From assembly GCA_009885745.1 (NCBI GenBank), contig VFKC01000017.1:1-55905 (forward strand): a DNA stretch of 55,905 nucleotides, written 5' to 3'. Position numbers and translations under genes: made by a program. The stretch comes from Actinomycetota bacterium (GTDB taxonomy: Bacteria; Actinomycetota; Actinomycetes; S36-B12; UBA5976). Under the pieces are notes generated by a model. That model had not been told where the DNA came from and did not search any database. It saw only the letters and a list, made by a program, of their open reading frames with translations. Within the stretch, counting starts at the first letter, position 1. The number at the start of each line of letters is the position of its first letter. Positions 4,189 to 8,975 of the stretch are shown here, piece by piece.

Positions 4189-5295
4189 TTATTTTTTATT
4201 GACGGAAGGATATTTGTCGTAGCACTCAGGAATTTCTATACCCTTGTTAAACCCCTCAATTGCCCTGACTGCTCCGCTTATGTTCGTAACCGGCGTGACC
4301 GTTAATCCAGCAGGAATGTGACCTAAGACCTCGTCGCAATTTGCGTTCGGAGCCAAGAACAACTTCGCACCCGCACGTTTCGCGCCAACTAATTTGTGGG
4401 CGATTCCACCAATAGGTCCCACTTTTCCAGTCGGCGTGATTGTGCCTGTTCCAGCAATAATCTTGCCACCTGTTAATGACCCGGGCGTCAATTTATCAAT
4501 AATGCCGAGGGCAAACATCGCGCCAGCACTAGGTCCGCCGACATCATCTAGCTCAAAGTCGATTGTGAAGTCTGCTGAATAGAGCATGTCTACCCCGATG
4601 CCGATAAATGGAATCTTAGTTTCGTCCACCTTGGTTGATGGGTCGTCCGGATATGCTCCAGACTTTATTTTTACAACTTCTTTCTTAGCCCCTCGCAAAA
4701 CCTCAAAACTGAAAACTGTGCCTATTGGGCTTGCGCGGATTACTGAGACGACTTGTTTCGGTGTTTTCATCATCACACCATCAATCAGCCGGATATGATC
4801 GCCCGCTTTAAGTTTGTTTGTAGCTGGAACATTATGTTTCACTGAAGTGACTGCAACATCTTGGCGTAACGGCTTGTTTAAGTAGCCCATAGCGGCAGCT
4901 ATTGCATCACTTTGAGAGAGGCTGAAATCCTCCGCACTTTGAATGTAATTATCTTCAGCTGTTTCTCCTGGCGGATAAATTTCTTCTCTCGGAATTACTT
5001 CATTTTCATTATTCAAGAGCGCAAAGATTCCTTGAAGCAAACTGATTCCCTCATCAGGCCCACCTGTTTCAGATACTGTGGTCATGTTCAGTTCACCAGT
5101 GGTCTTATAAGTTTTTGTTCCCGTGATTGAGATTAATTGATTACCCTGATCTGCACCGAGGGTGTTAAAAACTGGTCCTGGCGACAACAATACATATGGA
5201 ACGTTAACCACTGCACCAACGAGCCCCAAGAGGAACACTGAGGCGCTTAAGGTCGGAATAAAACGCCGCAAAACTAAAAGCACCTCCGCGCCCAA
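4189..5295 (-). CDS. PDZ domain / Lon-like (S16) protease, YlbL/Rv3194c-like
   Basis: N-terminal TM, PDZ-like region, DVGGPSAGAMFALGIID Lon-type catalytic Ser motif, AGTGTITPTGKVGPIGGIAHK. Confidence 0.88.
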   Translation of the reverse strand: MGAEVLLVLRRFIPTLSASVFLLGLVGAVVNVPYVLLSPGPVFNTLGADQGNQLISITGTKTYKTTGELNMTTVSETGGPDEGISLLQGIFALLNNENEVIPREEIYPPGETAEDNYIQSAEDFSLSQSDAIAAAMGYLNKPLRQDVAVTSVKHNVPATNKLKAGDHIRLIDGVMMKTPKQVVSVIRASPIGTVFSFEVLRGAKKEVVKIKSGAYPDDPSTKVDETKIPFIGIGVDMLYSADFTIDFELDDVGGPSAGAMFALGIIDKLTPGSLTGGKIIAGTGTITPTGKVGPIGGIAHKLVGAKRAGAKLFLAPNANCDEVLGHIPAGLTVTPVTNISGAVRAIEGFNKGIEIPECYDKYPSVNKK

Positions 5296-6836: not shown

Positions 6837-7490
6837 CTACTTACTCTGCTCCCCCAATGAATATCCTCGGAGAAACTCTTGGGCCATTTTATGTTCAGGG
6901 AAACTTTCCATAAGAGCCTGGAATTTCGGCCCATGATTGGCCACAAGTAAATGAATTAATTCGTGTAAGACGACAGCATCAATCACATAGTGCGGAGCCT
7001 TTTGTAATCTATGCGAAATGCGTATTGCGCCTGTAGCTGGAGTACAAGAACCCCATCTTGAATTTTGATTCGATACCCATTTCACAGTCACACCCTTTGG
7101 ATGCTTCTCAAATAGATCAAGATGTAAATATTGCACACTCAGTTGGCGTGCTCTCTTTTCAAGTTCCTCATGGGACGTGGACAAAGCCTTCCGCAAATCC
7201 AATTTGGCCACCAACTCGGTGACAATTGAATCAAGTTCCGCTTTTGCTATCGATTTTGGTGCATTAATAATGATCCGATCACCTTCACGCACTGCGGATA
7301 CAGAACGCTTACGTCGGGCGCTGAAACGGATTTCAATTTTGGTATTTGTCGTGAGTGCTTCTGCATTTTCAACCGAAGATGGTTCAGCATATTCTCGAAT
7401 TAAGGCTGGATTGAGTTGCCCTTCATCATCGAACATTTGGCCCAAATCACAAGCGTCATCAAAAAATGATGAACTCTCGAGGGCGGACAT
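6837..7490 (-). CDS. YgjP-like (M48-type/SprT-like) metallopeptidase
   Basis: HELIHLLVANHGPKF (HEXXH) and NSRWGSCTP motifs; ORF open from 7520 (TTG) but ATG at 7490 is the likely start. Confidence 0.88.
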   Translation of the reverse strand: MSALESSSFFDDACDLGQMFDDEGQLNPALIREYAEPSSVENAEALTTNTKIEIRFSARRKRSVSAVREGDRIIINAPKSIAKAELDSIVTELVAKLDLRKALSTSHEELEKRARQLSVQYLHLDLFEKHPKGVTVKWVSNQNSRWGSCTPATGAIRISHRLQKAPHYVIDAVVLHELIHLLVANHGPKFQALMESFPEHKMAQEFLRGYSLGEQSK

Positions 7491-7525
7491 AGGTTTTAGG
7501 TTAACCCAATTGACGGACAAAAAAG

Positions 7526-7599
7526 TGAAGCTCTCGAGGCGCGTGCTCGCTCGTTCGCCTTCCCCTTGCGAACGTCGGCTCGTTATCTCGAGAGCTTCA
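7526..7599 (-). other. Long hairpin with 3' T6 (candidate attenuator/sRNA terminator) upstream of the YgjP gene
   Basis: 13-bp perfect arms TGAAGCTCTCGAG/CTCGAGAGCTTCA, inner CGTTCGC/GCGAACG stem with AAGGGGAAG loop, then CTTTTTT on the minus strand. Confidence 0.7.
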
Positions 7600-7665
7600 A
7601 CTCATGAAAACTTAGACTGTTTGCTTGCGGCAGACAATGATTTCGTCGAACTAGCTGGACTCCCC

Positions 7666-7806
7666 TGTGGATGAAGTTGTGGATGACATGGGGAAATCGC
7701 CACGTACATCTGGGGATTAAGGGTGCAAAACCTGTTAACAAGTTTGTGTGTTACCGAGCGATACCTTGCAATACGTGGACTTATCCCCAGTACGTGTTGT
7801 GGAGAA
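7666..7806. promoter_or_regulatory. Cluster of DnaA-box-like 9-mers
   Basis: TGTGGATGA (7666-7674), TGTGGATGA (7678-7686), TGGGGATTA (7711-7719), TTATCCCCA (7781-7789), TGTGGAGAA (7798-7806); each within 1 mismatch of TTATCC(A/C)CA or its complement. Confidence 0.5.
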
Positions 7807-7919
7807 AAAATAGATTGAATCAGCACAGAATTAGTTCCAAAATTTGCAACCAACAGTTAGCACACAACTTCTGTTGACGGCTTAAAAAATTCACAGCCTC
7901 CAAGTTGAACTGTTTGTTT

Positions 7920-8975
7920 ATGACAACAAAACTTGCAATTAAATCCGGGGTCCATATTTTGTGGCGCAATAAACATGAGATTCAGATTGGTATCGATCCA
8001 ACAAAGTCATTGATTGTTGATGCCCAGATTGGAAAGCGCATTCTGGAACTTTGTGACGGAACTAGAACTATGCAAAATGTAATTGATGAAATGACTCAAG
8101 TAGCGAGCGGCCGCGAAACTATTTGCAATTTGTTGAATCTCTTATCAAATCAAGGTTTGCTTGTTGGGCAAGAAGATTTTCAATCTAGTGAAATCTCCAT
8201 AAAGAAAAATGCTGTTTTGCATAATTCCGATGCTCGGTTTTTAGCACAGCGTGACCTATCCCATCCAGCTACTAATTTTACGAATCGACTCAGCGCAGAT
8301 ATTCACATCTATGGTGGAGGCCGACTGGGTATGACCATCGCACTGCTTCTGGCAACCGGCGGTTTTCAAAAAATATTTGTCAAAGATGAGCAGCTAATTA
8401 CTGCGAGTGATTTGAGCGCTTGGGGTGCAAGTCGAATAGATATTGGAATGCGTCGTGACAAAGTAGCGATGCAACTAATTGAGAGAGTTCAAGCAGGAGC
8501 CACTCAGCGAACTGGGAGTAATCAAAATTCTCAAGCGCATAGGCTGAAAATCCTCGCACCAGATTGTGTGGCTGACTACCCATGGATCAGTCCCGATCAA
8601 TCTGATAGCTGTTTGACAAGTGACACTCCCCATATTTTTGCCACATTGGCTGGGTCAAAGTCAATGAAGAGTTCAATAATTCAGCCTGGTATAAATGGTT
8701 GCATTCGATGTATGCATAGTTATCTGACTGATCGCGATCCGGCTTGGCCAATTGTGTGTGCTCAACTTATTGGGCGGACGTCTGCAGATGTTTCCCCCAC
8801 GGGATTAGTAATGAGCACCGCCTTGAAAGTTGCCGCCAGCGTGAGCGAATGGTTTGATAGCGCGAAGAATCAAGCGAACCTGATTGAAGTTAATAGCTGG
8901 CCTGACGGACTTACTCAAAACATATGGAATGAACCCCATCCTGCCTGCGGATGCGGTTGGAACACGACTAGTTAA
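7920..8975 (+). CDS. ThiF/E1-like protein with N-terminal RRE/PqqD-like domain ('TOMM leader peptide-binding'-type, Rv3196-like)
   Basis: N-terminal PqqD-like fold region (ILWRNKHEIQIGIDPTKSLIVDAQIGKRILELCDGTRT), Rossmann IYGGGRLGMTIALLLATGG, paired Cys GCIRCMH and CGCGW; ORF open from 7905. Confidence 0.72.
   Translation: MTTKLAIKSGVHILWRNKHEIQIGIDPTKSLIVDAQIGKRILELCDGTRTMQNVIDEMTQVASGRETICNLLNLLSNQGLLVGQEDFQSSEISIKKNAVLHNSDARFLAQRDLSHPATNFTNRLSADIHIYGGGRLGMTIALLLATGGFQKIFVKDEQLITASDLSAWGASRIDIGMRRDKVAMQLIERVQAGATQRTGSNQNSQAHRLKILAPDCVADYPWISPDQSDSCLTSDTPHIFATLAGSKSMKSSIIQPGINGCIRCMHSYLTDRDPAWPIVCAQLIGRTSADVSPTGLVMSTALKVAASVSEWFDSAKNQANLIEVNSWPDGLTQNIWNEPHPACGCGWNTTS

Follow-up and report, generated by a model that had tools for sequence, protein, structure and literature searches.

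The window analysed here, a stretch of 55,905 nucleotides of actinobacterial DNA, carries between positions 4189 and 12018 genes for a PDZ/Lon-like protease, a Zincin_2 protein, a YgjP-like metallopeptidase, a ThiF-like protein, an ABC1 kinase and a UvrD-like helicase, an order that we take to resemble the Rv3194c–Rv3198c (whiB7) neighbourhood of M. tuberculosis without whiB7. The YgjP-like gene (ygjP; 6837..7490, minus strand) matches the Pfam families YgjP-like (4.3e-21) and SprT-like (1.2e-9); a query of viral contigs with ygjP found no relatives. On the same strand, just before it, lies one long hairpin that we predict to be an sRNA gene of about 85 nt (7519..7602, minus strand) on the strength of covariance-model matches, covariation and a G-U bias, with its 5' end predicted at about 7602/7601 and its 3' end within the T-run; ygjP lies next to it but is no target of a leader. 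A preliminary description had read this region as the leader of ygjP, with three arms forming a regulatory switch or attenuator, and the elements that it named are all present. Arm A (7587..7599) pairs perfectly with arm B (7526..7538), the apical loop AAGGGGAAG occupies 7559..7567, the tail CTTTTTT occupies 7525-7519, the ATG of ygjP is at 7490, and arm C (7470..7481), a near copy of arm B, lies within ygjP, all on the minus strand. The description was also right that no minus-strand gene lies upstream to be terminated.

The 91-nt hairpin has a predicted folding energy of -39.1 kcal/mol (z = -3.46), a stability that no sequence among 200 shuffled ones attained. Its consensus anatomy comprises a 13-bp outer stem of the GAAGCCCYCGG type formed by arms A and B, an internal loop with GATAAC, a middle part that varies and an apical stem of 7 bp. 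In the window, the conserved internal-loop element with the GATAAC core is AGATAACGA (7580..7588, minus strand; alignment A5). The apical loop, closed by GC/GC, is identical in 22 of 22 genus sequences and nearly so in 70 diverse sequences, and we propose it as a recognition site. One divergent copy, in the sister genus g2 (L250, G028), has the variant loop TATCTGGGGAAAG and keeps the boxes and promoter described below. Together with the outer stem, the CTTTTTT tail has the shape of an intrinsic terminator. A TTTT run 3' of the hairpin is found in 100 of 115 loci with a GC fraction of 0.6 or less vs 7 of 55 with higher GC, so that the 3' ends are uncertain in high-GC members, most of which have no T-run.

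The hairpin is widely conserved. A BLAST search of 7400-8000 against the genus gave matches in 22 of 23 genomes, and in the 20 more distant of these the stretch 7614-7519 is 76-93% identical (86-93% in most) while the flanks do not align. With covariance models built stepwise (R1, R2 and R3; 89 model positions), we found matches in 30 of 43 family genomes, 108 of 156 order genomes and 154 of 395 sampled class genomes, the last representing 60 of 125 genera, almost always as a single copy. Outside the class and within the phylum there were four matches (L232, L233, L235 and L237), in each of which the loop is accompanied by a TTGAC box and ygjP is adjacent. Among the carriers is Candidatus Planktophila lacus (NZ_CP016769.1, L106). 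Several carriers of the actinobacterial locus are labelled Bifidobacterium breve or Rubrivirga (L096, L131, L144, L160 and L117); these labels look wrong, or the metagenome bins look mixed. A further model match (L236) and a pattern match (L199) were both rejected as chance, as was an upstream-region match to L024 and L025, which reflects chance similarity within an ATPase gene. In Streptomyces-sized genomes and other negative families, the model found no RNA within 1.5 kb of ygjP, with few candidates scored per large genome.

Compensatory changes preserve a single secondary structure across these sequences, as expected of a conserved structured RNA. A MAFFT alignment of 22 sequences, independent of the model, gave a 26-pair consensus with six pairs changed on both sides and 97.8% of cells paired, a result matched by none of 500 shuffles. 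Pair counts are inflated in the larger alignments, which were fitted to the model: 19 of 26 pairs covary among 28 sequences, and all 26 covary among 70 sequences, with 394 double-changed cells and again none of 500 shuffles reaching this. All 13 outer pairs covary. Tested in orthologous regions in this way, the preliminary pairing of A with B is strongly upheld and that involving arm C fails. In alignment A5, read as the minus strand, there are 130 G-U cells vs 50 A-C cells; since an A-C cell is a G-U cell on the other strand, this excess identifies the RNA as the product of the minus strand of the window, the strand on which the hairpin is followed by the T-run. At the gathering score there is no match to any Rfam 15 family, a relaxed-score Rfam scan of 7400-7950 gave one match only, due to chance, and in the open-licence literature we found no description of this RNA. 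Thus, as judged from comparative sequence evidence, the hairpin is the body of a predicted RNA of about 85 nt that is conserved across Actinomycetota and belongs to a family outside Rfam.

The RNA appears to have its own promoter. Immediately 5' of the hairpin on the minus strand lie a -35 box, TTGTCT (7632..7637; TTGAC in many relatives), and, after a 17-bp spacer, a -10 box, TAAGTT (7609..7614), which together predict a start at about 7602. A TANNNT box occupies the matching place in 162 of 170 loci, and a sigma-70-like pair is present in 144 of 170, vs 0-3 of about 150-169 in control stretches (about 1%). No gene is fixed downstream: by lineage, the neighbour may be ygjP, a thiF-like gene or a convergent Zincin_2 gene, and in 126 of 172 loci ygjP itself is upstream of the RNA and diverges from it, and in 22 of 172 it is downstream and co-directional. 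One locus (L101) keeps the RNA and boxes with no match to ygjP or Zincin_2 nearby, having PDZ/Lon-like and NUDIX-like genes near instead. Because neighbours and orientation vary, and because that locus gave no nearby match to ygjP or Zincin_2, we regard the RNA as independent of any one neighbour. The hairpin is thus a predicted independent sRNA with its own sigma-70-type promoter, ended by the outer stem and T-run, with the reservation that the 3' end is uncertain at high GC. The preliminary description had considered, as an alternative to its switch, that the hairpin terminates an unannotated sRNA transcribed from 7600-7900. That reading was essentially right about an sRNA and misplaced it: the hairpin (about 7602-7519) is itself the sRNA, and what lies at 7609-7806 is its putative promoter, together with a DnaA-box array, rather than an upstream transcript.

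Three other explanations of the hairpin were considered. To the three-arm switch, in which A would pair with B as a terminator or with C over the ygjP start and so attenuate ygjP, we give almost no credence. The arms exist and an A:C duplex is indeed predicted, at -15.1 kcal/mol; however, with an A:B duplex at -22.2 kcal/mol (both energies for isolated duplexes), arm C is a much weaker partner of A, and in the minimum-free-energy fold with the downstream region A and B remain paired while C enters a separate hairpin. Arm C is also not conserved, as the alternative arm of an attenuator should be. It is absent from the 20 more distant genus genomes, and only in the nearest species (L002) does a worn form of it survive, CTCGAGAATTCA, so that we judge its resemblance to arm B to be chance. 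Moreover, ygjP has what appears to be its own leaderless promoter, with a -10 box, TAACCT (7498..7503, minus strand), that sits 7 nt 5' of the ATG, past the hairpin; a -10-like box lies 6-8 nt before the start genus-wide, and this spacing is conserved. In most loci, finally, ygjP diverges from the RNA. With its -10 box so close to the start codon, ygjP appears leaderless (7503-7490), with the start at 7490 and not at the TTG of a longer frame at 7520.

A cis-regulatory leader or riboswitch of whichever gene comes next is a broader version of this idea, and the compact, conserved structure with its fixed loop, together with an ATG close behind the hairpin in a few high-GC genomes, would fit it. 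We nevertheless consider it very improbable, because the downstream neighbour varies and the closest downstream genes often start hundreds of bases away. In one case (L062) the ATG opens a frame of only 32 codons. We rejected a leader role in cis, whether for ygjP or for a gene with its ATG directly behind the hairpin. An ordinary terminator, bidirectional or stray, or a DNA palindrome bound by protein would account for the terminator shape and also for weak reverse-strand matches to the model, to which the near-palindromic outer stem gives rise. Neither would account for a near-invariant unpaired loop, a dedicated promoter that begins at the hairpin, the lack of any upstream minus-strand gene to terminate, or a G-U bias that only selection on RNA from one strand explains, and this explanation, too, seems to us scarcely plausible. 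In genus g12, ygjP is found on either side of the RNA (L062 vs L071 and L073), which suggests that local inversions about the RNA and the array have happened repeatedly.

That array lies 5' of the sRNA promoter and consists of boxes facing one way, of the type bound by DnaA, the initiator of chromosome replication. In the window, all on the minus strand, the box closest to the promoter is TCATCCACA (7666..7674), and a second TCATCCACA (7678..7686) follows at 12 bp; two weaker boxes, TCCCCA, lie 11 bp further (7689..7694) and another 22 bp further (7711..7716), and there is an outlying box, TTCTCCACA, at 7798..7806. Upstream enrichment of TCCCCA resembles that of TCCACA. Around TCCACA the sequence logo reads TT(G/A)TCCACAG, which agrees with TTGTCCACA, the high-affinity DnaA box published for M. 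tuberculosis and S. coelicolor (PMC4285127). When counted in 50-bp bins, TCCACA is strongly in excess on one strand between about -250 and -50 relative to the loop and is almost lacking elsewhere within 500 bp. Outside the Nanopelagicaceae-like group, 95 loci have a mean of 3.9 forward TCC(A/C)CA boxes vs 0.23 reverse, and 72 of them carry three to seven DnaA-type boxes (TTGTCCACA) in one direction 5' of the promoter, with 11-12 bp between most neighbours. Spacings between boxes peak at 11/12, 22/23, 33 and 44/45 bp, close to whole helical turns, and the distance between the loop and the last box is mostly 94-107 bp. In several unrelated actinobacteria (L261, L264, L266 and L267), DnaA boxes also occur near dnaA as direct pairs with a separation of exactly 12 bp, as in the array.

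Such arrays are largely confined to this position. In 0.87 Mb of these loci there are 70 arrays of at least four boxes, of which 63 are directly 5' of the RNA; of the remaining seven, six begin 334-358 bp upstream of it and one lies elsewhere. The only such array in the window is the one at 7716-7666, with its outlier at 7806. DnaA-like sites are no commoner than chance across the window as a whole, so it is their clustering, and not their number, that distinguishes these boxes. The array is not oriC: it does not adjoin dnaA/dnaN, and 0.17-1.7 Mb separate the locus from dnaA in those single-contig genomes that were checked. Actinobacterial DnaA boxes stand at the sRNA promoter in most lineages, whereas the Nanopelagicaceae-like loci, a grouping defined by a sequence signature of the stem and not by a tree, keep the RNA and are almost devoid of boxes (mean 0.36), so that any DnaA control would not be universal.

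Taken together, these results make it probable, in our judgement, that the locus encodes an independent sRNA of about 85 nt that is controlled by DnaA and acts in trans through its loop. DnaA would bind the array cooperatively and, given the position of the array 5' of the -35 box, would most likely activate transcription of the sRNA. Activation is favoured over blocking because, in the window, about 64 bp separate the predicted start from the nearest box upstream. The level of the sRNA would then follow the amount or state of DnaA. The usual placement of the RNA beside a row of DnaA boxes suggests that its production may be tied to DNA replication. Once made, the RNA would act in trans via the near-invariant purine loop, which more likely binds a protein than base-pairs with many mRNAs. 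Not counting the copy in the sRNA itself, the complement of the loop, CTTCCCCTT, is no commoner across 23 genomes than its reversed control, which argues against many antisense targets, although one or two could still exist; nor are 8-mers enriched around the loci. We therefore rejected the loop as an antisense seed, the complement not being enriched and its sites near dnaA being scattered.

The main competitor to this model accepts the sRNA and assigns the boxes another purpose, such as titrating DnaA, inactivating or reactivating it, or regulating a neighbouring gene, with the RNA promoter merely nearby. Two observations speak for it: Nanopelagicaceae-like loci carry the RNA without the array, and the array lies far from dnaA, much as datA and DARS lie off oriC in E. 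coli. On the other hand, the side, direction and rough distance of the array relative to the RNA promoter are constant, and the array is retained beside the RNA even when the orientation to ygjP flips. We consider this competitor unlikely. A more ambitious form of the preferred model, that a phylum-old sRNA set by a phased DnaA array is an RNA output of the replication-initiation state, acting via a protein-binding loop, is one that we advance only tentatively, as a possibility that falls somewhat short of even chances.

If DnaA does drive the sRNA, the locus makes it testable how actinobacteria read the state of DnaA beyond oriC, and if the phased-array reading is true, it would reveal an undescribed RNA arm of actinobacterial cell-cycle control. 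The conserved sequence and coordinates allow a search for the transcript in existing RNA-seq data from cultured carriers. To our knowledge, few non-coding RNAs span a whole bacterial phylum, none has a DnaA-box array before its promoter, and a phased-array sRNA promoter is undescribed.

The molecule represents a known kind of RNA, the sRNAs; its family is without a catalogued relative in Rfam 15. 6C RNA and similar actinobacterial sRNAs are short, terminator-ended hairpins with a conserved loop, but the loops of 6C are C-rich, whereas that of the RNA described here is purine-rich. Like this RNA, Ms1 RNA is a widespread actinobacterial sRNA with a conserved gene neighbourhood (PMC9130861, PMC4191392), and in Streptomyces it is about 230 nt long (PMC9130861). 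Ms1 differs in that it binds core RNA polymerase and adjoins a HAD hydrolase gene, whereas the RNA described here is one hairpin adjoining ygjP, Zincin_2 or ThiF-like genes. It also lacks the length of at least about 160 nt and the large central bubble of Ms1 and 6S RNAs, having 89 model positions and a single hairpin with small internal loops. In E. coli, datA and DARS titrate or inactivate and reactivate DnaA, and they resemble the array in being non-coding clusters of DnaA boxes away from oriC. Unlike them, the array has boxes that run in one direction at regular intervals, right beside the promoter of a conserved RNA; we know of no conserved RNA of this sort for datA or DARS. The DnaA-regulated promoters known to us have mRNAs as their targets. 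Our proposal shares with such promoters, as in the DnaA regulon of Caulobacter (PMC3193534), in which DnaA serves as a transcription factor, the idea that DnaA acts at a promoter, but here the product would be a non-coding RNA.
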